Source: Steroidobacteraceae bacterium (GTDB taxonomy: Bacteria > Pseudomonadota > Gammaproteobacteria > Steroidobacterales > Steroidobacteraceae). Taken from it: 32,396 nt of DNA. The notes beneath the pieces were generated by a model. It saw only the letters and a list, made by a program, of their open reading frames with translations, had not been told where the DNA came from and ran no database searches. A program made the translations under genes and the position numbers. This document shows positions 936 to 20,745 of the stretch, in pieces. The stretch spans positions 1-32,396 of the forward strand of contig JADGHX010000037.1 in the NCBI GenBank assembly GCA_019683695.1, written 5' to 3'. Position 1 is the stretch's first letter, and every line of letters starts with the position of its first letter.

Positions 936-1814
936 ATGCTGAGCCTTCATACCAATGCCGCGGCACTGTCGTCGCAGAATGCGGTCGGCAACACGCAGCG
1001 CGCGCTGAACACGTCTCTCACCCGTCTGGGCACGGGCTTCCGCGTCAACTCCGCGATGGACGACGCTGCAGGTCTGCAGATCGCGGTGCGCCTCGACGCA
1101 CAGACCCGCGGCATGGCCGTGGCGCAGAAGAACACGCAGAACGGCATCTCGATGATGCAGACCGCCGAAGGCGCGTTCACGGAGCTCACCAACGTGCTCC
1201 TGCGTATGAAGGACCTGGCCACCGAAGCGTTCAACGCCTCCACGACGGCGGATGACAAGGCCGCTCTGCAGGCCGAGTTCGATGCGCTGGGCACGGAGCT
1301 CGGCAATATCATCAAGAGCACGGCATTCGGTGGCCAGAAGCTGTTCAGCGATGGCACCACGACGGACGGCTCGGGCGGCCTGCTCTCTGCGGCCATCACC
1401 TTCCAGATCGGCGCGAGCGCGGCCGAAACGATGTCGGTCGACACGGCCACCAGCCTGACGGACCTCGCCACGGCGCTCGACGCGGCCAGCTCGAACTACG
1501 CCACCCCGGGTACCGCGGGTACGGAGCTGACCGCTGGCACGAACGCCATCCTTACCAACATTTCCGATGCCATTACCGCGGTGGGTACGGTGCGCGCTCA
1601 GCTCGGTGCGGCCTCGAACCGCCTCGACCACGTGTACAACAACCTGTCGAACATGATCACGAACACGACCGCTTCCCGCGGCCGCATCATGGATGTCGAC
1701 TACGCCTACGAAACCTCGAACGCGACTTCCAAGCAGCTCCTGCTTCAGGCCGGTACCTCGGCGCTCAAGCAGAGCAGCGGGCTGTCGCAGCTCGTCGTCT
1801 CCCTGCTGCAGTAA
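936..1814 (+). CDS. lafA: lateral-type flagellin (LafA/FliC family)
   Basis: This is the filament subunit, exported through the flagellar type III apparatus and polymerised under the FliD cap. The 292-aa product has the conserved N-terminal D0/D1 helices (MLSLHTNAAALSSQNAV onward, with LGTGFRVNSAMDDAAGLQIA at about residues 31-50). It also has the matching C-terminal helices (AASNRLDHVYNNLSNM, then GRIMDVDYAYETSNATSKQ). The central variable region (about 130-210) is short, so the filament surface domain is small. An AGGAG at 921-925 precedes the ATG. The gene has its own sigma-28-like promoter and a strong terminator, so it is a single-gene unit, and it converges on flhA. The lateral assignment rests on the cluster rather than on this protein alone. 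Confidence 0.95.
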   Translation: MLSLHTNAAALSSQNAVGNTQRALNTSLTRLGTGFRVNSAMDDAAGLQIAVRLDAQTRGMAVAQKNTQNGISMMQTAEGAFTELTNVLLRMKDLATEAFNASTTADDKAALQAEFDALGTELGNIIKSTAFGGQKLFSDGTTTDGSGGLLSAAITFQIGASAAETMSVDTATSLTDLATALDAASSNYATPGTAGTELTAGTNAILTNISDAITAVGTVRAQLGAASNRLDHVYNNLSNMITNTTASRGRIMDVDYAYETSNATSKQLLLQAGTSALKQSSGLSQLVVSLLQ

Positions 1815-1916: not shown

Positions 1917-4001
1917 TCAGCCAAGCGAACCGATGATGCTGATCTCGCGCTGTTCGGGGATCTCGTTGTACGACAGCACGTTGAGACCGGGCGCGAACAG
2001 GCGCGCATAGCGCGACAGCAGCGGCCGGATCTGGGGAGGGACCACCAGCAATGGGGTTGTGCCCTGCTGCTTCATCTGCTCGCGCACCACCGGCATGTTC
2101 ACCTGAAGCTGCGAGAGCAGATGAGGGTCCACGGGATAGTTGTCGAGCACGACCCGGCCGCCCTGGCTCGCCTGGTTGAGCGAACCGAGCAGCATGTTCT
2201 CCAGCTCGCTCGTCAGATTGAACGCCTTCATTTCCGCGGAGTGACCCACGAGCGAGGCCACGATCTGCCTGCGCAGCGCACACCGCACTTCCGCGGCCAG
2301 CAGGATCGGATCCTTCGTGGTCTCGCTGCTCTCGAGCAGTGTCGTGGCGATCTGGACGATGTCCTTCAGCGAAACGTTTTCCGCCACCAGCAGCCGGAAC
2401 ACCTTGAGAAGCTGACTGTGCGTGAGCGCTTTCTCGAGTGCCGCCGCGAGCTTCGGGGCCTGCTGCGCCAGGCGCTCGATGAGCGCCGGAACGTCTTCGT
2501 GACGAAGCAGCTCGGGCAGATGGTCGCGCACAAGCTTGGCGACGTGGGTGGCGATGACGCTCGCCACATCGACAACCTGATAGCCGAGACCCAGTGCATT
2601 GGCGCGTTCTTCTGGCGAGATCCACACGACCGGCATGCCGTACGCGGGCTCGATGCCGGGAATGCCATCGAGCTGGCCGTACACCTCACCGGACGACAGC
2701 GCCATCAGATGGTCCGGGTACACCTCTGCCTGGACGATCTGGGTTCCGTTCAGCAGCACGCAGTACTGCGCAGGCTTCAGGGACAGGTTGTCCCGAACCG
2801 CGATCGGCGGCAGCAACAGCCCCATGGATTCGCTCAGGTTCTGCCGAACGCCCTTCAGGCGTTTGGTCAGCGTGGCCCCCTGAGCCGGATCGATGAGGCT
2901 CACGAGCTTGTAGCCCACCGTCACGGCGAGCGGCTCCACGAAGGGGAGGCTGCGCCAGTCGGGCTCCGGCGCGGGCTCGGTGGCGAGCGCTGCCTGCACG
3001 GCCGCGGTTTCGGCCGCGGGCTTCGTGACGCGCAGGCTCATTCGCCAGCCTGCAAAGCCCAGTACCGCGGCGAAAGAGAGAAAGGTGAACCACGGCATCC
3101 CCGGGATGATTCCGAGAACGAGCATCATGCCCGCCGCGCCGTACAGCACCCCGGGTGTGGCGAGCAATTGAGACCCGACCTGCTGCTCGAAATCTCCTGA
3201 GTCGCTGACGCGCGTGACGATGATGGCCGCGGCGGCGGACAGCAGCAGCGCCGGAATCTGCGCGACGAGGCCATCGCCGATGGTGAGCAGGGCGTAGAGC
3301 CGGAACGCCTCCCCGAACGAGAGGTCGTGCATCAGCGCGCCGATCGCGACCCCGCCGATCATGTTGATGAGCAGGATGAGCATGCCGGCGATGGCATCGC
3401 CGCGAACGAACTTCGACGCGCCGTCCATCGCACCGTAGAAGTCCGCCTCCGCGGCGACCTCGCGTCGACGTGCCTGTGCCTTCTCCTGATTGATGAGACC
3501 GGCGTTCAGGTCGGCGTCGATGGCCATCTGCTTGCCGGGCAGGGCATCCAGTGTGAAGCGTGCGGAGACTTCCGAGATGCGCTCGGCGCCCTTCGTCACG
3601 ACGACGAAGTTGATGATCATCAGGATGACGAACACCACGAGGCCGACGACGAAGTTGCTGCCGATGACCACGTGGCCGAACGCTTCGATCACCTGGCCGG
3701 CGGCGGCAGTGCCTTCATGCCCGTTCAACAGCACGACGCGCGTCGAGGCGACGTTCAGCGTGAGCCGTAACAGCGTTGCGGCGAGGATCACCGTCGGGAA
3801 GACGGAAAAGTCGAGTGGCCGGCGGCTCGTCACCGCGACCAGCACCACGATCAGCGCCAGCACGATGTTGAACGTGAACATCACGTCCAGCACGAAAGGC
3901 GGTAGCGGCAGGATGACCATCGCGAGGATGGCGAGCAGGAAGAGCGGCACCGCAAGTCGGTAGCGGCGCAGCCCGGCCAGGAGTGTCGAGATGGCGTTCA
4001 T
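1917..4001 (-). CDS. flhA: flagellar export gate protein FlhA (lateral LfhA)
   Basis: This is the large inner-membrane subunit of the flagellar type III export gate. It forms the nonameric ring that receives substrate/chaperone complexes. The 694-aa length is normal for the family. The N-terminal half holds several membrane segments (for example about residues 18-36 and 40-58). It contains the family signature RLTLNVASTRVVLL (about 79-92) and the charged cytoplasmic FHIPEP loop (KGAERISEVSARFTLDALPGK, from about 137). The C-terminal cytoplasmic domain starts at about 330. It is the last gene of the minus-strand operon, with 7 bases between the flhB stop and its ATG. Confidence 0.96.
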   Translation of the reverse strand: MNAISTLLAGLRRYRLAVPLFLLAILAMVILPLPPFVLDVMFTFNIVLALIVVLVAVTSRRPLDFSVFPTVILAATLLRLTLNVASTRVVLLNGHEGTAAAGQVIEAFGHVVIGSNFVVGLVVFVILMIINFVVVTKGAERISEVSARFTLDALPGKQMAIDADLNAGLINQEKAQARRREVAAEADFYGAMDGASKFVRGDAIAGMLILLINMIGGVAIGALMHDLSFGEAFRLYALLTIGDGLVAQIPALLLSAAAAIIVTRVSDSGDFEQQVGSQLLATPGVLYGAAGMMLVLGIIPGMPWFTFLSFAAVLGFAGWRMSLRVTKPAAETAAVQAALATEPAPEPDWRSLPFVEPLAVTVGYKLVSLIDPAQGATLTKRLKGVRQNLSESMGLLLPPIAVRDNLSLKPAQYCVLLNGTQIVQAEVYPDHLMALSSGEVYGQLDGIPGIEPAYGMPVVWISPEERANALGLGYQVVDVASVIATHVAKLVRDHLPELLRHEDVPALIERLAQQAPKLAAALEKALTHSQLLKVFRLLVAENVSLKDIVQIATTLLESSETTKDPILLAAEVRCALRRQIVASLVGHSAEMKAFNLTSELENMLLGSLNQASQGGRVVLDNYPVDPHLLSQLQVNMPVVREQMKQQGTTPLLVVPPQIRPLLSRYARLFAPGLNVLSYNEIPEQREISIIGSLG

Positions 4002-4008
4002 GCGTTGC

Positions 4009-5136
4009 TCAGTCAGACAGGTGCCGCGGCACCGGCAGGTCCGCAGGCAGGGAAGGTTGGGTTGATCGGCGCCCCGCGCGGAACGCCTGGATTTGCATCA
4101 CGTAGCTCAGCACGCGCGCCACGGCGGCGTACAGCGCGGCGGGAATCTGCTGATGCACCTGACTCGTGTTGTAGATCGCGCGCGCGAGCGGCGGCATCGA
4201 GACGACTTCCACGCCATGCTCCGTCGCAACCTGCCGGATGAAGAGCGCGAGCTCATCGATGCCCTTCGCCACGACAAAGGGCGCGGCGGCCCGTTTCTCG
4301 TCGTACTTGAGCGCCACGGCATAGTGCTCGGGATTGACGATCACCACATCGGCCTCGGGAACGGCCTTGCGGATGCCGCGCCGCGCGATCTGGTGCTGCA
4401 GTTGGCGAATGCGCTGCCGGACTTCAGGGCGGCCCTCATTGATCTTGTGCTCTTCCTTGACTTCCTGCTTGCTCATGCGCTGGTCACGCAGGAAGAGGAA
4501 CCGCTGCATCGGCAGGTCGATGAGCGCGAACGCCACGAAAACCGCACAGAGCGTCATCAGTCCGCCCATCATCAGCTTCGCGCCGGCGGAGAGGGCCTCC
4601 TGCATGGGCAGTGACGTCAGCCGGCCGTAGTCATCGACGCCACTTCGTGCAAGGTAGTACAGCACCGCGAGAATCGTGGCCGCCTTGGCGAACGCGATGA
4701 GCGTCTCGCCGAGATGCTTCGCACTGAACACACGCTTGAAATACGAGAGCGGGTTCAGCCGGTCGAGCCGGGGAATGAGCGGCGTGCCGCTCAGCACCCA
4801 GCCCCCGGGGAACAGGGACGCGAGGCCGATCGCCAGCGGCACGACCAGCAGTGGCAGCACCAGCTTCAGGAGCAACAGCATTGTTGCCGGGAAGAGCTGC
4901 GACCACGTGTCTTCCAACGTGCCCACGCCTTCGAGTGAGCGCAGGGATTGCGAGAACAGCGTGCGGAAGTCCTCGAGGTATTGCGGGGTGAGCACGAGCA
5001 CGAGTTGCAGGCACACGAGAATGCCCACGGCACCCGCCCAGTCCCGGGAGCGCGCGACCTGACCTTTCTCTCGCGCCTTGCGCAGCTTCTGCGGCGAAGC
5101 CTTCTCGGTCTTCTCGCCCGGATGCGGCGTGGACAC
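4009..5136 (-). CDS. flhB: flagellar export switch protein FlhB (lateral LfhB)
   Basis: This membrane protein switches export specificity from rod/hook to filament substrates after self-cleavage. The product is 375 aa. It opens with the hydrophilic KTEKASPQKLRKAREKGQVARS typical of FlhB, then has four hydrophobic segments (about residues 30-210) and a cytoplasmic FlhB-C domain. The autocleavage motif reads NPEH (about N268-P269-E270-H271, bases 4324-4335) where most FlhB proteins have NPTH; the scissile Asn-Pro pair is kept. The start is GTG at 5136, preceded by GAGGTGA about 7 bases upstream. It lies 6 bases from the fliR stop. Confidence 0.95.
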   Translation of the reverse strand: MSTPHPGEKTEKASPQKLRKAREKGQVARSRDWAGAVGILVCLQLVLVLTPQYLEDFRTLFSQSLRSLEGVGTLEDTWSQLFPATMLLLLKLVLPLLVVPLAIGLASLFPGGWVLSGTPLIPRLDRLNPLSYFKRVFSAKHLGETLIAFAKAATILAVLYYLARSGVDDYGRLTSLPMQEALSAGAKLMMGGLMTLCAVFVAFALIDLPMQRFLFLRDQRMSKQEVKEEHKINEGRPEVRQRIRQLQHQIARRGIRKAVPEADVVIVNPEHYAVALKYDEKRAAAPFVVAKGIDELALFIRQVATEHGVEVVSMPPLARAIYNTSQVHQQIPAALYAAVARVLSYVMQIQAFRAGRRSTQPSLPADLPVPRHLSD

Positions 5137-5142
5137 CGGTCG

Positions 5143-5910
5143 TCACCTCATTCCGAGCCGCAGGAGCTCCAGCACCTGGTTCGTCATGCGCACGTAATGC
5201 TCCGGAATGGATCGCACCACGTGGCCGAGCATGAACAGGCCGAAGATCGTCACGATGGAAAAGCCCAGCGCGAAGAGGTTCAGCGACGGCGCCACCCGGT
5301 TGAGGAAGCCGAAGCCAAGCTGCACGACGAGCGCGGAGAAGATCACCGGCAGCGCCAGGAGCAGCGCGGCCGCCAACACCCATGCCAAGTGCAACGCGAT
5401 GTTCTGGAAGCTCGCGAGGTCGATGCCGCCGCCGACCGGCCAGGCCCGGAAGCTCGAGCCCACGACACTCACCAGTACCAGGTGCCCGTCGATCGCGAAG
5501 AAGACAAGCATGTACAGCACGTAGAGCAGCGCCGAGATCACGTCGGACGAAACTCCGCTCATCGGGTCGTTCAGCGCGGCCATGGCAAGCCCGGCCTGTG
5601 AGGACACGGTGAAACCCAGGATCGCCATCACGGCCAACGTGAGGTGAAAGGCGAGCCCGATCGCGAATCCGAGCAGCACCTGTTCGAGCGTAACGACGAT
5701 GGCGTGAGCCGAGAGCGGCTCGATGGTGACCGCGGGCTGCGCGATCGGCATGAGCACCACGGCCAACACCAGCGCGAGAAGCACCCGTACCGTGATGGGC
5801 ACCATGTTGTCCCCGAGGATCGGGGAGGCGCTGAGCATGCCGAGCACGCGGCAGAACGGCCACCAGATGCCGGTGAGCAGGGCGGGCAGCTGAGTCAAAA
5901 CGAGCTCCAC
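5143..5910 (-). CDS. fliR: flagellar export gate protein FliR
   Basis: This is a core subunit of the FliPQR export channel in the inner membrane. The 255-aa product is of typical length and largely hydrophobic, with six likely membrane segments. Recognisable FliR blocks include LALVLAVVLMPIAQP (about 46-60), LGFAIGLAFHLTLAVM (about 81-96) and the C-terminal LNLFALGFSIVTIFGLFML. It sits between fliQ and flhB in the standard order P-Q-R-flhB-flhA, with gaps of 13 and 6 bases, so co-transcription is very likely. Confidence 0.95.
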   Translation of the reverse strand: MELVLTQLPALLTGIWWPFCRVLGMLSASPILGDNMVPITVRVLLALVLAVVLMPIAQPAVTIEPLSAHAIVVTLEQVLLGFAIGLAFHLTLAVMAILGFTVSSQAGLAMAALNDPMSGVSSDVISALLYVLYMLVFFAIDGHLVLVSVVGSSFRAWPVGGGIDLASFQNIALHLAWVLAAALLLALPVIFSALVVQLGFGFLNRVAPSLNLFALGFSIVTIFGLFMLGHVVRSIPEHYVRMTNQVLELLRLGMR

Positions 5911-5923
5911 GGATGAGCTCCGA

Positions 5924-6193
5924 TCAATGCACCAGCGTTGCCGCGCGCTGGAATACCGCCACGAAGTACTCCATGAGTCGTGTGGTCATCCAGTGGCCGG
6001 CCAGTGTGAGGGTGAGGAGCGTCACGAGCAGACGGGGAAGGAAACTCAGCGTCTGTTCGTTGATCTGTGTGGCGGACTGGAACAGGCCCACGATCAGGCC
6101 GACCACGAGGCCCGGCAACACGAGCACGGTCACAAGCAGCATCACAAGCCGCAGGCTCCCGCTGATGACCTCAACCGCGATATCGGGTGTCAT
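5924..6193 (-). CDS. fliQ: flagellar export gate protein FliQ
   Basis: This small export-channel subunit has 89 aa and two membrane hairpin helices (about residues 13-37 and 50-75). The segment between them, GLFQSATQINEQTLSFLPR, is the FliQ/FliJ-type signature. It starts 9 bases after the fliP stop and is followed by fliR. Confidence 0.95.
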   Translation of the reverse strand: MTPDIAVEVISGSLRLVMLLVTVLVLPGLVVGLIVGLFQSATQINEQTLSFLPRLLVTLLTLTLAGHWMTTRLMEYFVAVFQRAATLVH

Positions 6194-6202
6194 GGATGCG
6201 CG

Positions 6203-7006
6203 CTACAGGTGCACACTGCTGACGAGCGTCGTCACGGTGAGTGTCCAGCCGTCAACGAGCACGAACATGAGCAGCTTGAGCGGCAGGGAGATGACGAGGG
6301 GCGACAGCATCATCATGCCCATCGCCATGAGCAGCGACGACACGACGAGGTCGATGACCAGAAAGGGAATGAACAGCATGCAGCCGATCTGGAACGCCGT
6401 CTTGAGCTCGCTCAGCACGAAGGCGGAAAGCTTTACGAGAAACCCGTGCTGCATCGGGTCCGTCACGGCGCTTTCGCCAGCGAGCTGCGCCACGAGGGCA
6501 AGCGACCCCTTGTGTGTCTGCGCGAGCATGAACTTCGACAGAGGCGCTTCGGCGTTCGCCAGCGCCTGTTGCAGGCCGATGCGCTCTTCATCGAAGGGAA
6601 CGAAGGCATCGTTCCAGATCTGGGTGCCGACCGGTCGCATGACCAGAAGCGTCAGGATGAGCGCCACGCCCGTGACGATGCGATTCGGCAGACCCTGCTG
6701 CAGGCCGAGCGCCTGGCGCAGCAGCGACAGCACGATCACGAACCGCGTGAACGTCGTCATCATGAGCACCAGCACGGGCAGCAGCCCGAGCAGCGTCATG
6801 ATGATGAGCACCTGCGTCTTGACGGTGAACTCCGTCGTTGCGCCGTCCGAGGTGGCGCCAATGATCTCGATCGGCGCGGCCGCGGCGAGCTGCGGCAAGA
6901 GAATCAGCGCGAGCAAGGCGATCAGTGTGCCCGGCGGGCGCGCCGGCAGGCGCGCGCGCAAGGACACTCTCGTGCATCGTGGCTGCGCGGGCGGCGCGGC
7001 GGTCAT
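6203..7006 (-). CDS. fliP: flagellar export gate protein FliP
   Basis: This is the pentameric core of the FliPQR export channel. The 267-aa product has a cleavable signal-like segment (about residues 26-43, ending LPQLAAAAP). The FliP signatures TTFTRFVIVLSLLRQALG and the C-terminal FQIGCMLFIPFLVIDLVVSS are clear, with four membrane segments in the mature part. The first 25 residues are Arg/Pro-rich and precede the hydrophobic core, so translation could start further in. The ATG at 7006 overlaps the fliN stop (ATGA), which supports this start by coupling. No fliO gene lies next to it. Confidence 0.95.
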   Translation of the reverse strand: MTAAPPAQPRCTRVSLRARLPARPPGTLIALLALILLPQLAAAAPIEIIGATSDGATTEFTVKTQVLIIMTLLGLLPVLVLMMTTFTRFVIVLSLLRQALGLQQGLPNRIVTGVALILTLLVMRPVGTQIWNDAFVPFDEERIGLQQALANAEAPLSKFMLAQTHKGSLALVAQLAGESAVTDPMQHGFLVKLSAFVLSELKTAFQIGCMLFIPFLVIDLVVSSLLMAMGMMMLSPLVISLPLKLLMFVLVDGWTLTVTTLVSSVHL

Positions 7007-7386
7007 GACGTGAGGGAATCGAGGTCCATGTCGCTGAGCTCGACCACCTTCAGCCCGTAGTTCTCACCGCTCACCACTACCTCCGCCCGGCCGATGGGCG
7101 TGCCGTTCACCTTCATCACCAGCGGCTCACCGGCGATCGAATCGAGCTCGAGCACGCTGTTCGGCTGCAGGGAGGCGAGATCCGCGAGCGTGATGCGGGC
7201 CGCGCCGACTTCCAGGGTCAGCGTCACGGGAATCCGGCGCATCATCTTCGAGAAATCGCGCCGGGGGCGCGCTCGGGTGGCGTCAGCTTCCGACGGCGTG
7301 TCTTCGAGCTGTTCGGGAAGCTCTCCGCCAAGCAGGGCGTCAACTGGCGTGTCTTCGGGGGCGCTCACGGGACGGTTACTCCACAT
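7003..7386 (-). CDS. fliN: flagellar motor switch protein FliN
   Basis: This C-ring protein binds FliM and the FliH export ATPase complex. The 127-aa product has an acidic, poorly conserved N-terminus (1-45) and a SpoA/FliN domain (about 50-125) with the family run LQPNSVLELDSIAGEPLVMKV and a following VNGTPIGRAEVVV. Its ATG at 7386 overlaps the end of fliM by 11 bases. A GTG at 7368 is an alternative start giving 121 aa, since GGAG lies 10 bases before it, while nothing like a ribosome site precedes the ATG. Confidence 0.93.
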   Translation of the reverse strand: MWSNRPVSAPEDTPVDALLGGELPEQLEDTPSEADATRARPRRDFSKMMRRIPVTLTLEVGAARITLADLASLQPNSVLELDSIAGEPLVMKVNGTPIGRAEVVVSGENYGLKVVELSDMDLDSLTS

Positions 7387-8248
7387 CTTCGAAAGAGGTC
7401 AGGCACAGCTTGCCCTTGTGCTCGGCGATGCTGGCGGTAAAGAGTCGGGAATCCCCGATGAGCACGTCCGTGCGCGGCAGTGAGACGGGGATCACATCGC
7501 CCACGCGAGTGTCGAGCAGCTTGCCGAGCGGCAGCTCCTTTTCGAGCAACCGGGCAGTCAGCGTGAGGTGCAGGCGTGCGGGCAGCGGCTGTGTAGCGGC
7601 TGCAGCCGCCGCGCGCGGTGTGCGCAGATGCTCGCGCGTCGGTGTGAGCCCGCGCAGCAGCTTTGCGACCCACGACTCTTCGAGCAAAAAGTGAATGCGT
7701 CCGGAAGTCTTGCGTGTTGGCTCGGTGACATCGACGCGCAGCAGCCAGCCGCCTTCGATCGGCGCTGCGCCGGGCACTTCGGTGAGCTCACCTGTGGCGG
7801 ATCGCTCCGAATGCGGGAGCAGGGCGTCGATGCTGCGAACGAGTATGCCGGTGAATTGCGCACCGAGCATCGAGACGAGACGTTCCTCACCGGAGGTCTC
7901 CGGTTCGAGCGGCTCGTCCGGTTGCAGGCCGTAGCGATAACGAAGAACACAGGCGACGAGGTCGCGCGCAATGGAGAAACCCACGCGTCCGGTGCTGCTG
8001 CCGAACATGCGCCAGCGCAGCCCCGGTTCGGTGCGACGCTCGAAGGCCACCTCGCCGACCTCGAAGCTCGCCCGATAGCGCCGATTGAATCGGACCCGCA
8101 GCTCCTCGGCGATGTCCTCCCGCACCCGGGCGGTGAACCGGTCTGTCAGATGCACGGGCCGGCCGAGCGTGCGGGGATCGAGGATCCGATGCGGGCGTGG
8201 GCTCGAGGTCAGGCGTTCCCGAATTTGTCTTTGACCAGATACATCCAT
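7376..8248 (-). CDS. fliM: flagellar motor switch protein FliM, short N-terminus (lateral LfiM)
   Basis: This C-ring subunit links FliG to FliN. The middle and C-terminal parts fit FliM: a CheC-like core, then a SpoA domain with LGKLLDTRVGDVIPVSLPRTDVLIGDSRLFTASI near the end (shown by residues ~240-275). The usual N-terminal CheY-P docking peptide (LSQxEIDALL type) is absent, and the common GGxGR motif is replaced by a VLRYRYG block. The open frame extends to an ATG at 8299. A sigma-28-like promoter at 8302-8328 would start RNA at about 8293-8296, so I prefer ATG 8248 (290 aa, MDVSGQRQIRERL); neither start has a good Shine-Dalgarno. It is the first gene of the minus-strand operon. Confidence 0.88.
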   Translation of the reverse strand: MDVSGQRQIRERLTSSPRPHRILDPRTLGRPVHLTDRFTARVREDIAEELRVRFNRRYRASFEVGEVAFERRTEPGLRWRMFGSSTGRVGFSIARDLVACVLRYRYGLQPDEPLEPETSGEERLVSMLGAQFTGILVRSIDALLPHSERSATGELTEVPGAAPIEGGWLLRVDVTEPTRKTSGRIHFLLEESWVAKLLRGLTPTREHLRTPRAAAAAATQPLPARLHLTLTARLLEKELPLGKLLDTRVGDVIPVSLPRTDVLIGDSRLFTASIAEHKGKLCLTSFEDVE

Positions 8249-8301
8249 CACGTGATGGCTTCTTGCTCGATGCGCATCCTGAATTCGCGCTACGAACATC
8301 G

Positions 8302-8328: not shown

Positions 8329-8528
8329 GCGCGCAACGAGGAGTGCCGCCTTACGCGCGCGCGACCCATTCACCGACAATGTTCCAAAGAGCAGACAAGT
8401 AAGAGCAACGCATCGAAGTGGGCACGTGGCGCACGATCGATACACGTAGCGCGTGTGATGCAGCGCATGATTTCAGAAAAGTTTCGCGGGTATCGCTTGC
8501 GCGTCGCGAGAGCGCGCTGCTAGCGTGA
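8329..8528. other. non-coding spacer upstream of the riboswitch
   Basis: No convincing gene is seen here. This is where lateral clusters of Vibrio and Aeromonas carry lafK (and motY) between fliM and fliE, and nothing of either remains. The promoter for the riboswitch transcript must lie in or near this stretch. A weak candidate is TTGCGC at 8497-8502 with CTAGCG at 8520-8525 (17-base spacing). An AAAAGTTT at 8477-8484 resembles a sigma-28 -35 box but lacks a matching -10. Confidence 0.5.
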
Positions 8529-8619
8529 TTCGCAAGGGCACACCCGTGCGAAAGCCGGGGTCGCAAAGCCTCCGGTCTCCCGTCCAGGCATCTGGACCAC
8601 GACAGCGGGGTTGCCGGAC
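8529..8619 (+). promoter_or_regulatory. cyclic-di-GMP-I riboswitch aptamer (GEMM-I)
   Basis: The stretch carries the conserved GEMM-I blocks in order. A 5' CGCAAGGGCACACC (8531-8544) is followed by a stem closed by a GAAA tetraloop (8550-8553). Next comes the core GGTCGCAAAGCCTCCGGTCT (8559-8578). A second stem, GTCCAG-GCAT-CTGGAC (8582-8597), leads to the 3' block GACAGCGGGGTTGCCGG (8601-8617). These match the known consensus (GACGCAAAGCC..., ...AGC-GGGUUGCCG). The GNRA loop and second stem fit the known fold, in which the tetraloop docks into that stem. It lies 148 bases before fliE on the same strand, so it should control the fliE-led operon in response to c-di-GMP. Confidence 0.93.
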
Positions 8620-8766: not shown

Positions 8767-9111
8767 ATGGCAAGCGACATGAGTGCAGCGATACAGGCGG
8801 TGGCCGCGCGCATCGAGGCCGACGCCGGGTCGCTGGCGATGAAAGTGAGTGCGCCTGCGGCCGGGCACGGGCACGTGCAGGAAGGGACGGACGGCGGGTT
8901 CGCCGAACGTCTGCGCCAGGCGCTTTACGACGTGAATGCGCAGGACCGCGCCGCCTCCGAGAAGATGGCCGACGTCGATGCGGGACGCAGTGACGATCTG
9001 GTCGGCGCCATGCTGGCAAGCCAGGAGGCGAGCCTCTCGTTCTCCCTGTTGATGCAGACGCGGAACAAGCTGGTCGGCGCGCTCGAGGACCTGATCAAGC
9101 TGCAAATCTAG
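8767..9111 (+). CDS. fliE: flagellar hook-basal body protein FliE
   Basis: FliE joins the MS ring to the rod and is an early export substrate. The 114-aa product matches FliE best in its C-terminal half (residues 50-114), with LVGAMLASQEASLSFSLLMQ and RNKLVGALEDLIKLQI as the typical ending. GAGGAG (8756-8761) precedes the ATG. It is the first gene after the c-di-GMP riboswitch and the head of a long plus-strand gene run. fliF follows after 19 bases. Confidence 0.92.
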   Translation: MASDMSAAIQAVAARIEADAGSLAMKVSAPAAGHGHVQEGTDGGFAERLRQALYDVNAQDRAASEKMADVDAGRSDDLVGAMLASQEASLSFSLLMQTRNKLVGALEDLIKLQI

Positions 9112-9130: not shown

Positions 9131-10801
9131 TTGATCACTCGGCTGAAGCAGCTCGTCGCGCGCGTGCGCGGCGCGGCAGGGGACCCCTCCGCGGCATCAC
9201 CAGTCTCCGTGAAGAGCCTGTTGCCGCTCGTGATGCTGGCCGGCGGCATCACGGCGCTCGTGATGCTGTATCTCTGGCGGGATCAATCCACGTACAAGCC
9301 GCTGTTTGGTGCGCGGGAGAACGTATCCGCCGCGGACATGATGGCCGTGCTCGATGGCGCCGGCATCGCCTATCGGGTGCATCCGGAAAGCGGTCAGGTG
9401 CTCGTGCCGGCCGACGAGGTGGGCCGGGCGCGCATGCTGCTCGCCTCGAAGGGCGTGGTGGCGAAGCCGCCCGCGGGCCTCGAGCTGGTGGCGAACGACG
9501 ATCCGCTCGGCGTGAGCCAGTTCGTGCAGGACGTGCGGTTTCGCCGGGGGCTCGAGGGCGAGCTGGCACGAAGCATCATGACGCTCGCCGCGGTGGAATC
9601 CGCTCGCGTCCATCTATCCCTGCCGCGCTCGTCATCGTTCGTCGTGAGCGATGCCGAGAAGAGCTCCGCTTCGGTGATCGTGACGCTCAAGCCCGGCAAC
9701 GAGCTCAGCCGGGAACAGATTGCCGCGATCATCAACATGGTCTCAGGCAGCGTGGCAGGGCTCGATCCCCAGCGGGTCACGCTGGTCGATCAGGCGGGGG
9801 ATCTGCTTTCGGCGCGGGTGGATCTCTCCGAGGGCTTCGAGTCGCTTGAGAGCAATGACGCCGCCCGCTACCACCAGGAGCGAACGTGGAAGAACGCGCG
9901 GGAGCTGCTCGCGCCGGTGCTCGGCGAGCACAACTTCAAGGTGAGCGTCACCGCGGAAGTCGACAACGACCGCGTGAAGGAGACCCGCGAGCAGTACGGC
10001 GACACCCCACGCGTGACCAACGAAGCCCTGCGACAGGAGTCCGATCGCGACGCGCTGGCGCTCGGTGTGCCGGGCTCGCTCAGCAATCGGCCCATCGATG
10101 TCGAGCCGGCTCCGCAGAACGATGCGGGTGCGGGCACGGCTCAGCGCAATGCCACCACTCGGCAGTACGCCTACGACCGCAGCGTCACGCAGATCGAGCG
10201 CAGCCGCGGACGACTGCGCAGGTTGAATGTCGCGGTGGTGTTGAACAGCGCGGCCGCGCCGGGCGGCACGGGCACCTGGACTGCAGCGCAGCTTGCGAAC
10301 ATCGAGAACATTCTTCGCAGCGGGCTCGGCATCGACAGCTCGCGCGGCGACACGCTCGTGGTCTCGGCGCTTCCCTTCCCGAAGTTGCCTGACCCGGCTC
10401 CGTGGTGGAAGCAGCCCGACACGGTCACCGACATCGGCTCATGGGTCCTGCAGGCGCTGGCATTCCTCCTGGTGTTTTTCTTCGTTGCGAGGCCGCTGGT
10501 TCGCCTGGCTCAACAGCGATTCGCAGCACCTGTACCGGCGTTGGCACACGCGCAAGCGGGCGCCGAAGCGAACGCCGCAAACGCGCTGCCGGGCGCGCGG
10601 GAGAACGCCGCGCTCGGACGCGAGACCCGGGCGAAAGGCCCGATGGCCGTGAGTCCGTTGCTCGACGATTACGACCTGCCGCCTGCGGGCTCGCCCGTCG
10701 ATGTGATGGTCGACCACCTGAAGGTGCTCGCTGCTAAAGAGCCGGAGCGTGTGGCCGAAGTGGTGAAGCAGTGGGTTCAGAACAATGTCCGAGCTCAATA
10801 G
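9131..10801 (+). CDS. fliF: flagellar MS-ring protein FliF
   Basis: FliF forms the membrane ring on which the basal body is built. The 556-aa protein is of normal length. It has a first membrane segment at about residues 29-47 (LPLVMLAGGITALVMLYLW). The YscJ/FliF periplasmic domains follow, with LEGELARSIMTLAAVESARVHL and SASVIVTLKPG. A second membrane segment is at about 438-457, followed by a cytoplasmic tail that binds FliG, ending AAKEPERVAEVVKQWV. The start is a TTG at 9131 with GGAG 9 bases upstream; no ATG near it keeps the N-terminus. Its end overlaps the fliG start by 17 bases. Confidence 0.96.
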   Translation: MITRLKQLVARVRGAAGDPSAASPVSVKSLLPLVMLAGGITALVMLYLWRDQSTYKPLFGARENVSAADMMAVLDGAGIAYRVHPESGQVLVPADEVGRARMLLASKGVVAKPPAGLELVANDDPLGVSQFVQDVRFRRGLEGELARSIMTLAAVESARVHLSLPRSSSFVVSDAEKSSASVIVTLKPGNELSREQIAAIINMVSGSVAGLDPQRVTLVDQAGDLLSARVDLSEGFESLESNDAARYHQERTWKNARELLAPVLGEHNFKVSVTAEVDNDRVKETREQYGDTPRVTNEALRQESDRDALALGVPGSLSNRPIDVEPAPQNDAGAGTAQRNATTRQYAYDRSVTQIERSRGRLRRLNVAVVLNSAAAPGGTGTWTAAQLANIENILRSGLGIDSSRGDTLVVSALPFPKLPDPAPWWKQPDTVTDIGSWVLQALAFLLVFFFVARPLVRLAQQRFAAPVPALAHAQAGAEANAANALPGARENAALGRETRAKGPMAVSPLLDDYDLPPAGSPVDVMVDHLKVLAAKEPERVAEVVKQWVQNNVRAQ

Positions 10802-11807
10802 TCTTCCCGCGCAACGCAGTGAGCCGACGCCGCTCGAGCGTGCCGCCATCGTCCTGCTGAGCATGGGTGAGGAGCCCGCCGCGGCGGTTCTGCGCTGCCT
10901 GTCTCGCCAGGAGCTTCTCGAAGTGACGCAGGTGATGTCGCGCATCAGCGGCATCAAGGTCGAGGCGGTGAGAGCTTCTCTCCAACGCTTCTTCGATGAC
11001 TATCGGGATCAGAGCGGCGTTCACGGCGCCTCGCGCACCTACCTGAAACGCTCGCTCGATCTGGCGCTCGGTGCGAATGTGGCCGACACGGTGCTCGACA
11101 CCATCTACGGCGATGCCATTCGCCCCAAGATGGCGCGACTGCAATGGGCGTCGCCCAAGTGGCTCGCCGAGCGCATCAGCCACGAGCATGTTCGCATGCA
11201 GAGCGTGTTCCTCGCGTTCCTGCCGCCGGAGCTCGCGGGTGAGGTCGTGTTGGCATTGCCCGAGGAACGCCGCGAACAGGTGCTGCTGATGATGGCGCGC
11301 ATCCGGGACGTGGATCGGGAGCTGCTCGTCGAGCTCGATGAGCTCGTCGAGCAATGCCTGGAGAGCCTGGGCCTGCAGAGCACGTCGGTGGCGGGCGCGC
11401 GCCAGGTGGCGAACATCCTGCATCGGCTGCCCGCCAACCGCACGAAGCTGCTCGAGCACTTGCGGACGCAGGATGCCGACGCGCTCGATGAGATCGAGCG
11501 CAACATGTACGACTTCTTCATGCTGTCGCGGCAGAGCGAGGCGGTGCTGATCCGCATCCTCGACGAAGTGCCCATGGAAGAGTGGGCCGTTGCCCTGAAG
11601 GGTGCCGAGCCGGCGCTGCGCGACGCCTTCCTGCAGGCGATGCCGCGTCGTCAGGCGCAGAGCTTCGAGGAAACGATGCGGCGCGTGGGCCCGGTGCCCC
11701 GCAGTCGCGTCGAGCAGGCGCGCCAGGACATCATGAAGCGCGTGCGCGCGCTTCGCGATGCCGGCGAGATCGAGTTGCAGATCTTCGCGGAGGCCGTCGT
11801 CGAATGA
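10785..11807 (+). CDS. fliG: flagellar motor switch/rotor protein FliG
   Basis: FliG is the rotor protein that contacts the stator and carries torque. The 340-aa length is typical. The N-terminal domain (LERAAIVLLSMGEEPAAAVL) binds FliF. The middle and C-terminal domains include an EHVRMQS segment (about 138-144) where better-known FliG has EHPQ. The C-terminal torque helix region runs from about 245 to 310 with alternating charges. It overlaps fliF at its start and fliH at its end. Confidence 0.95.
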   Translation: MSELNSLPAQRSEPTPLERAAIVLLSMGEEPAAAVLRCLSRQELLEVTQVMSRISGIKVEAVRASLQRFFDDYRDQSGVHGASRTYLKRSLDLALGANVADTVLDTIYGDAIRPKMARLQWASPKWLAERISHEHVRMQSVFLAFLPPELAGEVVLALPEERREQVLLMMARIRDVDRELLVELDELVEQCLESLGLQSTSVAGARQVANILHRLPANRTKLLEHLRTQDADALDEIERNMYDFFMLSRQSEAVLIRILDEVPMEEWAVALKGAEPALRDAFLQAMPRRQAQSFEETMRRVGPVPRSRVEQARQDIMKRVRALRDAGEIELQIFAEAVVE

Positions 11808-12517
11808 GCGCCACGCGTCATTGGCGACCGCATCGGTTCGCGCCGCTTTCGGAGCTCACGGGCACGCCGGAATGGCATGCGGGCGTGCCGGTGCATCTTT
11901 CCGCGCAGTTGCAGGCGTCGATCTCGGAAGGTTTTCAGCGCGGGATGGAGCGCGGCTATCGCGAAGGACACGAGAGCGGCCGTCAGGCCGGATTCGAGAC
12001 CGGGCTTGCCGAGGGCCGGGCGCAAGGCGCGCGCACAGGCGCGGAGGAGGCGCGTCGAGAGGTTCGCGAGCGCTTCGAGCGCCTGGCCGAGCCGGTGGAT
12101 TCCATCATCCGCAGCCTGCGGGCCCTCGAGGACGACTACCATCGCGCGCTTCGCACCGAAGTCGTGGAACTCGTGGCCCGTGTGGCTCGCGAAGTCATCC
12201 GCTGCGAGCTCATGCTGCAGCCGGCGCAGTTGCTGGCGCTCGTCGACGAAACCGTCGGCACGATGCCGCCGCTGCCGGGCGAACGCATCGACGTGTTCCT
12301 CAACCCTCAGGATCTCGAGCGGATCCGCGAGATCGATCCCCAGCGCGCGAATCAGTGGCATCTGGTGCCGGACATGCGTCTGGAAACCGGGGAGTGCCGG
12401 GTCAGGGTCGGTGAGCGTGAGGCGGATGCAGGGTGCCGCCAGCGTCTGGACCGATGCATGGAACAGGTGAAGCAACAGCTTCTGCCGGATGAGGGGATCA
12501 CGGAGGCCGCCGCGTGA
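11804..12517 (+). CDS. fliH: flagellar export ATPase regulator FliH
   Basis: FliH dimers bind and restrain the FliI ATPase and link it to FliN. The 237-aa product has a glycine-rich repeat region of the GxxxG type (GFQRGMERGYREGHESG through GFETGLAEGRAQG, about residues 44-75), which is the hallmark of FliH. A charged coiled region and a conserved C-terminal domain follow. I place the start at ATG 11804, overlapping the fliG stop (ATGA). The open frame continues upstream to 11582, but that part is only another frame of fliG. Confidence 0.92.
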   Translation: MSATRHWRPHRFAPLSELTGTPEWHAGVPVHLSAQLQASISEGFQRGMERGYREGHESGRQAGFETGLAEGRAQGARTGAEEARREVRERFERLAEPVDSIIRSLRALEDDYHRALRTEVVELVARVAREVIRCELMLQPAQLLALVDETVGTMPPLPGERIDVFLNPQDLERIREIDPQRANQWHLVPDMRLETGECRVRVGEREADAGCRQRLDRCMEQVKQQLLPDEGITEAAA

Positions 12518-13824
12518 TCAGCGACGTCCTGCGCAAGCTGGAAATTGGTTCCGTGCCCGTGGCGACGCCGGCGGGGCGCCTCGTCGGTGCATCCGGCCTG
12601 CTGCTCGAGAGCATGGGCTGCGCGATGCGCACCGGGCAGCGTTGCGTCGTGGAGACCGGGGCAGGGGATTGGATCGACGCGCAGGTTGTCGGCTTCCGCG
12701 AAGAGACGTCGTTCCTCATGGCTCTGCGTCGCCCCGAGGGTCTCGCGACTGGCGCGCGCGTGCTGCCGCAGCCGGAGCGCGAAGGCCTGCGCATCGGACC
12801 GTCGTGGCTCGGTCGCGTCGTGAATGGTCTCGGCGAGCCCGTCGACGGTCGCGGGCGTCTCGGCGGTGACCACGTTCTCGACGCACAGCCACCGCGCGTG
12901 AATCCGCTTCGCAAACACCCGGTTCGCGAACCGCTCGACGTGGGCGTGCGCGCGATCAACGGCGTGCTGACGCTCGGCAAGGGGCAGCGTGTCGGGCTCA
13001 TGGCCGGCAGTGGCGTCGGCAAGAGTGTGCTGCTCGGGCTCATCACGCGGCAGACGGTTGCGGACGTCGTCGTCGTCGGTCTGATCGGCGAGCGCGGTCG
13101 CGAAGTGCGGGAGTTCATGGACATGTCTCTCGGGGAAACCGGGCTCAAGCGCGCGGTCGTCGTGATTGCGCCTGCGGACGAGTCGCCGCTCATGCGTCTG
13201 CGTGCCACCGAGCTGTGCCACACGATCGCGGCTTACTTCCGCGATCAGGGACAGGACGTTCTGCTCTTGGTGGATTCGCTCACCCGTTACGCGATGGCGC
13301 GCCGTGAAGTGGCCCTCGCACTCGGTGAGCCGCCGGCGACGAGAGGCTATCCGCCCTCCGTATTCAGTCTCCTGCCGCAGCTTGTCGAGACGGCCGGGAA
13401 CGGAGAACACGATCGCGGCAGCATGAGTGCGATTTACACCGTGCTCGCGGAAGGCGACGACCAGCAGGATCCGGTCGTCGACACGGCGCGGGCGATTCTG
13501 GACGGTCACATCGTCCTCACGCGCGAGCTCGCGGAGCGAGGTCACTATCCGGCGATCGACATCGCACAGTCCATCAGCCGCTGCATGAGTCTTGTCGCCA
13601 CGCCCGCCCATCAGAAGGCGGCGCGGCGGCTCATCAGCATGGCCGGGCGCTACGCGCGCGTGCGCGACTTGTTGCCGCTCGGCGCGTATGTGCCAGGCGC
13701 CGATCCGGAGACCGATCGCGCCGTGGAGCTCTATCCGCGCATCGAAGCGTTCCTGCAGCAGGGCGTGCGGGAATCGGCGCCGCTCGATGCCACCGTCGCG
13801 GCGCTCGAGGAGCTCATGGCATGA
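12514..13824 (+). CDS. fliI: flagellum-specific export ATPase FliI
   Basis: FliI is the F1-beta-like ATPase that helps load export substrates. The 436-aa product has a Walker A loop GSGVGKS (about 165-171), a Walker B region VLLLVDSLTRYAMARREVAL and the family signature PPSVFSLLPQLVETAGNG. The start is a GTG at 12514 that overlaps the fliH stop (GTGA). fliJ follows with a 4-base overlap, giving the normal H-I-J order. Confidence 0.97.
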   Translation: MISDVLRKLEIGSVPVATPAGRLVGASGLLLESMGCAMRTGQRCVVETGAGDWIDAQVVGFREETSFLMALRRPEGLATGARVLPQPEREGLRIGPSWLGRVVNGLGEPVDGRGRLGGDHVLDAQPPRVNPLRKHPVREPLDVGVRAINGVLTLGKGQRVGLMAGSGVGKSVLLGLITRQTVADVVVVGLIGERGREVREFMDMSLGETGLKRAVVVIAPADESPLMRLRATELCHTIAAYFRDQGQDVLLLVDSLTRYAMARREVALALGEPPATRGYPPSVFSLLPQLVETAGNGEHDRGSMSAIYTVLAEGDDQQDPVVDTARAILDGHIVLTRELAERGHYPAIDIAQSISRCMSLVATPAHQKAARRLISMAGRYARVRDLLPLGAYVPGADPETDRAVELYPRIEAFLQQGVRESAPLDATVAALEELMA

Positions 13825-14294
13825 GCGAACCGCATTTCCTGAAATCGCTCGGCCGGCTGGCGGATCTGCGCGCACGCGAGGTCGAGCGGCTGAGCGCGGA
13901 TTTCGCAAGCCGCGAGGCGACGCGATCCCGCTTCCTGGGCAATCTTGCCCGCCTCGAGAAACTCTGCGAGACCTCCGGCGCGAGTGGAGCACCGCTTCAG
14001 ACCGGCCGCTCCGGATTGCCGGGCGCACGGCTTTCGCCGTCGCTGTCTCTCAACTGCGGCAGCTACAAGCAGGCTGTACTCCGGATGGCGCACGCGCACC
14101 GCGTGGACCTCGCCCTTCACGAAGCGGACATGGCCATTGCCCGACGCGCCCTCATCGCGGCGGCCCGGCGGCGGGACGCCATTAATAAGGAGTTGGCCCG
14201 CCAGCAGCGGACCGTGCGCAGGTCACAGAACACGCGGGAGCAGAAGCGCCAGGACGATCTCGCGCTCGAGGTGTGGCGGAGGGGTCGCAAGTGA
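13821..14294 (+). CDS. fliJ: flagellar export protein FliJ
   Basis: FliJ is the coiled-coil stalk of the export ATPase and escorts chaperones. The 157-aa product is charged and almost wholly helical, with long Arg/Lys/Glu-rich stretches at both ends and a short break at about residues 55-75 (SGASGAPLQTGRSG). Family resemblance is weak in sequence, as usual for FliJ. Position after fliI with an ATGA overlap and the size support the call. Confidence 0.85.
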   Translation: MSEPHFLKSLGRLADLRAREVERLSADFASREATRSRFLGNLARLEKLCETSGASGAPLQTGRSGLPGARLSPSLSLNCGSYKQAVLRMAHAHRVDLALHEADMAIARRALIAAARRRDAINKELARQQRTVRRSQNTREQKRQDDLALEVWRRGRK

Positions 14295-14336
14295 GGGCGC
14301 GTGTCGCTTCAGGCGGACAGGGTTCCGGTCGCCTTG

Positions 14337-14356
14337 AAACAGGAATCCCCTGTTTT
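14337..14356 (+). terminator. weak hairpin between fliJ and fliD
   Basis: AAACAGG and CCTGTTT form a 7-bp stem around a 5-base loop, followed by one further T. It sits in the 81-base gap after fliJ, one of the largest gaps in the fliE-flgN run, and 20 bases before the fliD ATG. It might attenuate or process the transcript between the basal-body half and the lafB-U-like half. A true terminator is doubtful because no T-tract follows. Confidence 0.25.
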
Positions 14357-14375
14357 GGGTGAAGAGGAGCGCGTT

Positions 14376-15737
14376 ATGGCAACCACCATCGACCCGGCAA
14401 CGACCGCCACCCAGCTGGCCACGGCATATACGCAGGCCGCGCAGAAGCTGCTGACTTCACAGAATGAGGCGGCTCAGCGCACTGCGTCGGCGCTGTCGAC
14501 ACTGAAGACCGCGCTCAGCACGTTCGATACGGCGCTGGCGTCGCTCTCGGGCAGCAAGGGTCTGCGGGAGCTCTCGGCTTCGTTCGATGTGACGGGCGTG
14601 GGTACCGCGAGCGCGTCGTCAAAGGCGCAGCCGGGCACCTACTCCTTCTTCGTCGAGCAGCTGGCCACCGCGCATCAGATTGCATTCACCGATCTTCCGG
14701 CGGTGCCGGTCGCACTCGGTGGCCCGCTGACCGTGCAGCTTTCCGACGGCAGCAGCTTCAACGTGAACCTCGTGCTCGCAGATACCGATGGTGACGGCAG
14801 CATCTCGCAGTCCGAAATCGCACGCGCGATCAATCTCGCCGAGGACAACAAGGGCAAGGTGACGGCATCGCTCGTTACCGTGGACGGGCAGACACAGCTG
14901 CTCCTGTCCTCCGGGCAGACCGGTGCGGATCACGCCATCACACTCGATACGAGCGCGATTCCGGCAGGCGCACTGAAGGATGCTCTCGACAACGGACAGG
15001 AGCTCGTCGCCGCGAAGGACGCGATCGTCTGGCTTGGCGGCCCCACCGGGATGAAGCTGCAGCAGTCCTCGAATACGTTCACGGCGATCGAGGGCGTCAG
15101 TGTCACCTTCACGCGCGCGATGTCGGCGTCTGAGCCGCTGGCGACGCTCACTGTGGCCGCGAACAACTCCGCGACGGCGGATAACGTTCGCAAGTTCGTG
15201 GATGCGTACAACGCGCTCAAGAAGAGTCTCGATGATCTCACGCGGCCGGGCGATCCGGCGGCCGGCACCCAGGCGGCCGCCTTTGCATCCGATGCTGGCG
15301 TGCGCGCGCTGCGCAATCGCCTGAGCTCGATTCTGCGGCAGGAGTTCGATGGCCTGAGTCTTCTGGATCTCGGCGTCCGCGCCGATCGCCAGGGCAATCT
15401 CTCACTCGACACCACGCGTCTCGAGAAGACACTGGCTGCAGACCCCGAAGCGCTCGAGAAGGTGTTTGGCAAGGCGAGCCTCACGACGAGCAGCGGGGTG
15501 CTCGGTGCCATGAACGACTGCGTCGATCAGTGGCTCAAGAGCTCCACGGGTCAGATCGCCCGGCGGCAGGAGAGCCTGCAGATGCAGCAGAAATCGCTCA
15601 CTGAGCGTCAGGCGCGGCTCGATGCGCAGTACCAGAGCATTTACCAGCGCTATCTCATGCAGTTCACGCAGCTGCAGCGGCTGCAGGAACAGATGAGCCA
15701 GACCTCGTCGCTCTTCAGCGTCGTTCCCGCAGGCTGA
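14376..15737 (+). CDS. fliD: flagellar filament cap protein FliD (lateral LafB)
   Basis: The cap protein (HAP2) sits at the filament tip and folds incoming flagellin. The 453-aa product has helical N- and C-terminal domains (FliD-N about 10-110; FliD-C about 220-440, ending in a coiled coil QMQQKSLTERQARLDAQY). Between them is a flagellin-IN-like segment with a perfect EF-hand loop, DTDGDGSISQSE (residues 136-147). I start at ATG 14376 because GAGGAG lies just upstream; the frame is open to 14301. It opens the block that parallels lafBCDEFSTU. Confidence 0.93.
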   Translation: MATTIDPATTATQLATAYTQAAQKLLTSQNEAAQRTASALSTLKTALSTFDTALASLSGSKGLRELSASFDVTGVGTASASSKAQPGTYSFFVEQLATAHQIAFTDLPAVPVALGGPLTVQLSDGSSFNVNLVLADTDGDGSISQSEIARAINLAEDNKGKVTASLVTVDGQTQLLLSSGQTGADHAITLDTSAIPAGALKDALDNGQELVAAKDAIVWLGGPTGMKLQQSSNTFTAIEGVSVTFTRAMSASEPLATLTVAANNSATADNVRKFVDAYNALKKSLDDLTRPGDPAAGTQAAAFASDAGVRALRNRLSSILRQEFDGLSLLDLGVRADRQGNLSLDTTRLEKTLAADPEALEKVFGKASLTTSSGVLGAMNDCVDQWLKSSTGQIARRQESLQMQQKSLTERQARLDAQYQSIYQRYLMQFTQLQRLQEQMSQTSSLFSVVPAG

Positions 15738-15771: not shown

Positions 15772-16158
15772 TTGAATTCCGACGCCTATCACAGCTACCA
15801 CGCCGTCAATGTGGCCGCCCAGGTCGCGCAGGCCTCGCCGGTGCAGCTCGTGCTGATGTTGACCGACGGGCTCATCGAAGAGCTGTTGCGTGCGCGGGCA
15901 CATATCGAAGCGCGCCGCTACGAGCTCAAGGCGCGCAGCCTCGATCGCTGCGTCGACATGCTGAACGGGCTGTCGAGCGCGCTCGACGTCGAAGCGGGCG
16001 GCGAGCTGGTCGAGAACCTGAGCCGGCTGTACGAGTACTGCGCGCACCGGCTGTACCAGGCCGGTTACCAGCTCGATCCGAAGATCGTCGACGAGGTCGT
16101 GGATCACATGACGCTCCTGCGCAAGGGCTGGCAGGGCATGCAGGCGCGCCATGGCTGA
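15772..16158 (+). CDS. fliS: flagellin export chaperone FliS (lateral LafC)
   Basis: FliS binds the C-terminus of flagellin and keeps it unpolymerised before export. The 128-aa product has the family signature SPVQLVLMLTDG (about 23-34) after an N-terminal AYHSYHAVNV, then four helices. The start is TTG at 15772, with GAGGA a few bases upstream; no suitable ATG exists near the conserved N-terminus. It overlaps the next gene by 8 bases. Confidence 0.92.
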   Translation: MNSDAYHSYHAVNVAAQVAQASPVQLVLMLTDGLIEELLRARAHIEARRYELKARSLDRCVDMLNGLSSALDVEAGGELVENLSRLYEYCAHRLYQAGYQLDPKIVDEVVDHMTLLRKGWQGMQARHG

Positions 16159-16462
16159 GCAGACGGCACTCGGCACGATGGCCCCGCGACTGCGGCGGGC
16201 CGTCGCCGCGAAGGACTGGACGGCGCTTGCCGCGCTCGATCGCGAGCTGGCGTCCCTGCTGCGGCGACTTGCCGCATCGAAGTCGTTGTCGAGGGCGGAT
16301 CGTCGCGCACTGGAAGAGGTGCGTCAGGCTCACGCGGAAGGGCGGGCTGCGTGCGCACGCGAGCTCGACCTGTCGGCTGAGCGGCTGGCGGTGGCTCACG
16401 AGCGCAAAGGCGGCTGGATGGCCTACGCGCTGAACGGCGCCCCGGAAGAGGACCGCGAATGA
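16151..16462 (+). CDS. FliT-like chaperone (lateral LafD)
   Basis: This is a small helical protein of 103 aa, rich in Ala, Arg and Glu. Sequence alone does not identify it. Its place between fliS and fliK equals that of lafD/fliT in lateral and polar clusters, where FliT is the export chaperone of the FliD cap. Overlaps with fliS (8 bases) and fliK (ATGA) show tight coupling. The function is inferred from context. Confidence 0.7.
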   Translation: MAEQTALGTMAPRLRRAVAAKDWTALAALDRELASLLRRLAASKSLSRADRRALEEVRQAHAEGRAACARELDLSAERLAVAHERKGGWMAYALNGAPEEDRE

Positions 16463-20722: not shown

Positions 20723-20745
20723 GAACGAAGTTACGAGGTCGTGTC

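Follow-up and report, generated by a model that had tools for sequence, protein, structure and literature searches.

Does the leader RNA of a secondary flagellar operon itself read the second messenger c-di-GMP? The question is raised by a stretch of DNA of 32,396 nucleotides (here called the window), the whole of one contig of a 5.18-Mb, 312-contig Steroidobacteraceae genome, in which an earlier note made from the letters alone had seen a c-di-GMP-I (GEMM-I) riboswitch in front of lateral flagellar genes. Lateral flagella answer to c-di-GMP, and the routes that we found described are proteins. The lateral flagella of Vibrio, Aeromonas and Shewanella putrefaciens are controlled by proteins, LafK being a sigma-54 activator; in the window, by contrast, the leader RNA carries a predicted sensor, and no sigma-54 activator of the LafK type was found among the frames scanned.

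Searching the whole window with cmscan gave one match to one Rfam family at gathering level: RF01051 (c-di-GMP-I, GEMM-I) on the plus strand at 8527-8618, with 64.9 bits (E 1e-10) against a gathering cut-off of 35 bits. The match spans model positions 1-87 of 87, with no non-standard pair marked. The element had been proposed at 8529-8619, 1-2 bases off. P2 with its GAAA loop and the P3 stem are both present in the alignment. Judged by this alignment, the assignment of the predicted element to the GEMM-I family is firm. The features around it are as follows.

8497..8526, plus strand: sigma-70-like box pair, TTGCGC (8497-8502), 18 nt, TAGCGT (8521-8526), from a pattern search
8527..8618, plus strand: c-di-GMP-I (GEMM-I) aptamer, RF01051, 64.9 bits
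8619..8766, plus strand: leader from aptamer to fliE, candidate expression platform, from fold prediction

Aptamer numbering was taken from passages of PMC3764141 and PMC4744006 and mapped onto our own GEMM-I alignments. The passage of PMC3764141 lists G20, A47, A48 and C92 as ligand contacts, together with the interhelical pair C44-G83. By this mapping all contacts are present in the window aptamer (G20 = 8537, A47 = 8565, A48 = 8566, C92 = 8614), as is the interhelical pair (8562/8605); the GAAA tetraloop falls at 8550-8553, C24 at 8541 and U43 at 8561. The 5′ strand of P2 has one additional base, U8547, and the tetraloop receptor in P3, CUCCC / CACGA, departs from the common CUAAN / UANGA.

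The genes of the window are listed below in the order in which the text needs them, beginning with the run behind the element.

8767..9111, plus strand: fliE (PF02049)
9131..10801, plus strand: fliF (PF01514, PF08345)
10785..11807, plus strand: fliG (profile match)
11758..12517, plus strand: fliH, start uncertain (PF02108 in frame 11582-12517)
12514..13824, plus strand: fliI (profile match)
13821..14294, plus strand: fliJ (profile match)
14301..15737, plus strand: fliD (profile match)
15772..16158, plus strand: fliS (profile match)
16151..16462, plus strand: fliT-like, by position (PF05400 at E 0.07 only)
16459..17610, plus strand: fliK (PF02120)
17624..18082, plus strand: fliL (profile match)
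18079..18795, plus strand: fliA, sigma-28 (profile match)
18823..19734, plus strand: motA (profile match)
19712..20722, plus strand: motB (profile match)
20629..21060, plus strand: flgM, anti-sigma-28 (profile match)
21057..21485, plus strand: flgN, last gene of the riboswitch-headed run (profile match)
1917..8299, minus strand: divergent fliM-like, fliN, fliP, fliQ, fliR, flhB and flhA, not behind the riboswitch (profile matches)
21492..22322, minus strand: flgA (TIGR03170)
22219..31027, plus strand: second plus-strand run, flgB C D E F G H I J K L (letters of the rod-protein genes assigned by order)
936..1814, plus strand: flagellin (profile match)

With fliE starting at 8767 (PF02049), the 148 bases between aptamer and fliE that the earlier note had counted on the same strand were recovered, and so was the run of ~12.7 kb: fliE-flgN occupies 8767-21485, 12.7 kb on one strand, with fliD, motAB, fliA and flgM inside. 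Of the phrase ‘complete lateral flagellar operon’ one half stood, as the element does head the lateral fliE operon; ‘complete’ was too strong, because this operon is one of at least three transcription units and the divergent fliM-flhA genes, the minus-strand flgA and the separate flgB-L run all lie outside it. The fliM-like gene matched only PF01052, the C-terminal domain. Behind flgL, at 31052-32155 on the plus strand, there is a 367-aa frame with no Pfam or NCBIfam match.

We call the flagellum of the window secondary (lateral-type) as the window holds a separate full flagellar gene set and a second set is located elsewhere in the genome. This second cluster, on contig C82, has a fliF with 40% and a flhA with 51% identity to those of the window; its companions are two sigma-54 activators, an SRP54/FlhF-like GTPase, fliM and an atypical PilZ protein. 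Scoring 150 of 256 first-look candidates gave five GEMM-I elements in the genome, with none on contig C82 among the matches listed. The genome also has 23 GGDEF matches. Within the neighbourhood of related genomes GEMM-I is common, at least one being present in 117 of the 148 genomes searched (the window's own included), and a FliF close to that of the window is rare (4 of 148, own included).

The window's arrangement recurs. A FliF scan of named genomes yielded 214 relatives, of which the best 80 were kept as loci. These were searched with a covariance model that we derived from 33 GEMM-I elements of the window's genome and its relatives. Besides the window, 18 of these best 80 loci carry, between fliM and fliE, a GEMM-I oriented like fliE (L010, L013-L020, L022, L026, L032, L037, L041, L050, L051, L053 and L073). 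All six carrier loci given to Rfam matched RF01051, with 60-77 bits. Named carriers include Azoarcus indigens DSM 12121, Zoogloea sp. LCSB751, Roseateles violae PFR6 and Ramlibacter sp. H39-3-26; the 13 carriers with a family label belong to Zoogloeaceae, Rhodocyclaceae, Sphaerotilaceae and Comamonadaceae (Ramlibacter). Among the genomes of the 80 loci, 34 were searched for FliF, and 33 of them have it in two or more places.

Wherever matches were found, the gene order was the same as in the window, with one exception, L079, in which motA and motB directly follow fliF. Both fliM and fliE were found in 77 of the 80 loci, and the gap between them was measured between the ends of BLAST matches. 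It amounts to 842-1232 nt in the 18 carriers and to 468 nt in the window. Among the 59 loci without the element, 51 have a gap of 237-740 nt; of the other eight, one has 1311 nt and seven have 2599-2936 nt.

The seven loci with long gaps of 2.6-2.9 kb (L024, L027, L029, L030, L035, L038 and L079) are riboswitch-less loci of Comamonadaceae with long extra frames in the gap. The larger minus-strand gap frame is histidine-kinase-like both in L024 and in L038; a second gap frame scanned in L024 had no match. Perhaps the histidine-kinase-like frames of L024 and L038 encode an alternative regulator.

Presence of the element clusters on the FliF tree: it took 4 changes, against 17.4 for shuffled labels, with 0 of 500 shufflings as low. 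The tree was made by a quick method from 81 rows and an outgroup, with L009, which begins at fliF and has its leader outside the record, scored as lacking the element; the well-supported branches force only 2 changes of presence. Close to the window the element was missing from the other loci searched: none of six other Steroidobacter-type loci (L006, L007, L008, L012, L023 and L033) gave an RF01051 match, leaving the window's copy alone in its near neighbourhood, and the unfiltered model reached at most 6.2 bits on the one leader tried, that of L006. One early gain followed by several losses would fit this distribution; transfer of the leader or of the cluster would fit as well.

In a wider draw the lateral-aptamer model was run against genomes that share the class (369) or the order (399) with the Zoogloea genome, and the top 10-11 candidates per genome were scored; among these, matches of at least 85 bits were the window, the Zoogloea locus and one further locus, L156. 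The search of viral contigs found no relative. In L010 the leader occurs twice in inverted orientation, at about 8559-8867 on the minus strand facing the fliM operon and at 9220-9520 on the plus strand facing fliE, and the sequence matches between the copies extend into the leader reading frame; thus, by inverted duplication, each of the two divergent operons there faces one aptamer.

The lateral aptamers have a largely shared form. In the 20 that were aligned, G20, A47, A48 and C92 (alignment positions 11 G, 39 A, 40 A and 88 C) and the pair C44-G83 are invariant. C24/U43 together with a P2 5′ strand longer by one base is present in 18 of 19 fliE-strand lateral aptamers, the exception, L010, having A24/U43 with the longer strand. 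The 32 other GEMM-I of the model alignment have A24/A43 (29), A24/G43 (2) or C24/U43 (1), and none has the longer P2.

A wider comparison used 90 other GEMM-I loci, a set that leans towards the models used since most loci are top-scoring matches; 71 of them gave 78 pattern matches and 19 gave none. C24/U43 and the longer P2 occurred together in two of these loci: L156, and L155, whose element is none other than the Zoogloea lateral one. Of the 78 matches, 4 had C24/U43 but no longer P2, and 10 had a longer P2 but no C24/U43. We rejected the notion that the combination is exclusive to lateral flagella, as L156 has both features and no flagellar neighbour and as each feature occurs alone elsewhere. 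As far as these alignments go, the form is typical of the lateral set, non-exclusively.

The element of L156 / L185, around 6752-6842, is located away from flagellar genes; in L156 a frame for a Rieske/VanA-type oxygenase starts ~2.4 kb downstream of it, with three closer frames that match nothing in Pfam. C24 goes together with U43 outside flagellar loci too, for example in L110, L132, L148 and L164; among the 78 pattern matches C24 was never seen with A43 and was seen once with C43. This suggests that positions 24 and 43 are coupled.

The tetraloop receptor is more variable. CUAAN is kept in 8 and UANGA in 6 of the 20 lateral aptamers, as compared with 23 and 25 of the 32 other GEMM-I, and among the 20 the CUCCC strand is found in the window's copy only. 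An altered receptor had been considered as a shared mark of the lateral set and was discarded, as the changes differ and four of the 20 (L014, L015, L016 and L018) keep the common form. The outer pairs of P3 covary in relatives. The P1 stem was in no excess over shuffled flanks (combined p 0.64 in 13 chosen loci). No second conserved RNA structure was found behind the aptamer; the pairs of the consensus fold were all in the aptamer or adjoining it.

Upstream of the aptamer, 13 of 19 leaders, among them that of the window, have a pair of boxes of the form TTG(N3)-16/17/18-TA(N3)T that ends 8-16 nt before G20; by shuffling, 0.08 such leaders would be expected. We settled on this pattern after inspecting the sequences. 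Within these 13 leaders the pairs end 10-14 nt before G20, and in the window 10 nt before this ligand-contacting base. The six leaders without the pair are L014-L018 and L050. A general promoter scan at its stricter threshold gave none. Were the boxes functional, the transcript would begin a few bases ahead of the ligand pocket and contain little of a P1. The search for sigma-54 sites in the fliM-fliE gap gave nothing firm, best scores (out of 12) being 6-10 where the element is present and 6-11 where it is absent; a sigma-54 site, TGGCACTATAATTGCC, is present in four Massilia loci without the element.

Taken together, the recurrence in the same gap and orientation, the largely shared aptamer form and the box pair support a link of the predicted element to the lateral fliE operon.

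How a bound aptamer would be read out is less apparent from the leaders. A scan found no intrinsic terminator in the window leader; a GC hairpin before CCCTTTTG, predicted at about 8710-8734, is too weak to be claimed as one. Another predicted hairpin, 8746-8763, contains the Shine-Dalgarno sequence (GGAGAG). Masking of the Shine-Dalgarno sequence at the first start is convincing by eye in the window, L010, L022, L032 and L037, yet over all 19 leaders it was non-significant against shuffles: accessibility was within the lowest 5% of shuffles in 3 of 19 leaders, and duplex energies gave a combined p of 0.14 (all 19) or 0.055 (13 chosen loci). When leaders were folded once with and once without the aptamer, the differences were inconsistent and indicated no direction.

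A start codon could be placed 129-166 nt behind the aptamer in 19 of 19 leaders, the choice being made partly by eye; the ribosome site there is plausible in most leaders and weak in L026. In the window this start is that of fliE itself. In the 18 other loci it opens a frame of 5-8 codons (nine loci; seven codons in L014, L015, L016, L018, L019 and L020) or of 27-124 codons (nine loci), with peptides that are alike between close relatives only. There fliE follows at about 330-640 nt behind the aptamer, the window's leader being shorter, and thus control in these loci need not act on fliE itself.

By computation we thus observed an aptamer, its position, its recurrence before lateral-type fliE in several families and promoter-like boxes. 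The probable reading is that a GEMM-I riboswitch on a sigma-70-type transcript controls the lateral fliE-flgN operon, with high c-di-GMP most likely lowering its expression. A sigma-70-type promoter would give rise to a transcript with the predicted riboswitch at its 5′ end; at high c-di-GMP the nascent leader would bind the ligand, and the bound leader would lower expression of the operon, fliA, flgM and the stator genes included. The lateral flagellum would then be built at low c-di-GMP only. Read-out would be by translation or by Rho-dependent termination rather than by an intrinsic terminator, and the other flagellar set, with its sigma-54 activators and FlhF-like GTPase, would stay outside riboswitch control. 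If so, these bacteria may use an RNA sensor to decide on building their second flagellum.

The sign of the switch is where an alternative has most room. A functional GEMM-I could be an ON switch, with c-di-GMP raising the operon, for instance for lateral flagella upon surface contact. Both signs are known, ON- and OFF-switches with homologous aptamers being named in the title of PMC9262584; in Vibrio cholerae, according to an excerpt of PMC4744006, Vc1-dependent expression was reduced when c-di-GMP was lowered; and our own folding favoured neither direction. We nevertheless consider an ON switch unlikely and the OFF direction preferable, because of two precedents. In Clostridioides difficile the class I riboswitch Cd1 (Cdi-1-3), which precedes the 23-kb flgB operon, acts as an OFF switch (PMC6366702), and in Shewanella putrefaciens the lateral flagella are stimulated by PdeB, a phosphodiesterase that carries a GGDEF domain (PMC9061725).

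The window element might also be a decayed or passenger GEMM-I that has lost regulation. It has the sole CUCCC receptor strand among 20 and a shorter leader, and the element is missing from the six Steroidobacter-type loci nearest to it; on the other hand, contact residues and GAAA loop are kept, the Rfam alignment has no non-standard pair and promoter-like boxes are present, which makes decay quite improbable.

Some GEMM-I RNAs prefer cGAMP, and these variants carry A at position 20. A GEMM-I sensing another cyclic dinucleotide, such as 3′,3′-cGAMP, would accordingly be at odds with the G found at position 20 in 20 of 20 lateral aptamers, and we give this option very little weight.

That the match arose by chance or as an artefact, or that the contig was misbinned, is hardly credible. 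An E of 1e-10 and 18 other loci of the same arrangement speak against chance. The assembly to which the window belongs as a whole contig has 312 contigs and an estimated contamination of 1.54%, but the window's FliF is nearest by path to the Steroidobacteraceae rows of the FliF tree, and the genome itself is joined to this family by way of the L006, L008 and L023 genomes; misbinning would, moreover, leave the element's identity as is.

To place the proposed OFF switch among known systems, some background is needed. C. difficile is Gram-positive with peritrichous flagella, S. oneidensis has a single polar flagellum, and the lateral flagellar genes of Vibrio and Aeromonas are in split divergent operons. 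In the part of PMC6366702 that describes it, Cd1 resembles the window element in that a GEMM-I heads a long early flagellar operon including the motility sigma factor, and it is the natural model; it differs in its terminator read-out, with none found in the window, where the aptamer is of the U43/longer-P2 form and the flagellum a secondary, proteobacterial one. A GEMM was also proposed before fliE in a proteobacterium: Table 3 in a portion of PMC2659441 has a putative GEMM before fliE and before flgB of Shewanella oneidensis, credited there to an earlier paper. The second flagellar set of S. putrefaciens, the lateral one, is responsive to c-di-GMP, and a section of PMC9061725 gives FlrA2 and MotL as the proteins that likely mediate this. 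As for read-out, Vc1 of V. cholerae has no apparent terminator or anti-Shine-Dalgarno sequence in the account excerpted from PMC4744006, yet regulates its gene.

Thus, GEMM-I before a flagellar operon is known from Cd1; what is new is a known aptamer class in a new, recurring place and in a largely shared form. The earlier note knew of no described riboswitch-controlled lateral flagellum, and we recognised none among the matches listed in our searches of mainly open-licence literature. An RNA sensor heading the lateral operon in several families would link the second messenger directly to a whole organelle, and would provide a natural case of two flagella of one cell under different kinds of c-di-GMP reader. 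The named carrier strains, presumably harmless bacteria, could make RNA control of lateral flagella testable.

One could speculate further, tentatively and with doubt about the whole, that a GEMM-I with U43 (mostly with C24) and a longer P2 travelled with one lineage of proteobacterial secondary flagella; that it sits too near the transcription start for much of a normal P1, and that its tetraloop receptor drifted away from the common form; that, together with a sigma-70 promoter, it replaces the LafK/sigma-54 master switch, the lateral flagellum then taking its c-di-GMP signal from RNA and the polar one from proteins; and that in many species a small leader frame would be gated first, rather than fliE.

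Other GEMM-I elements of the window's genome have different neighbours. Those on contigs C198 (L124) and C233 (L125) are located before pilM-pilN and before an M23 peptidase gene adjoining secA. The one on contig C281 is strong (85 bits) and is found ~1.6 kb downstream of a GGDEF domain; behind it, on the plus strand of L123 at 5283-7112, there is a 609-aa frame with no Pfam match.
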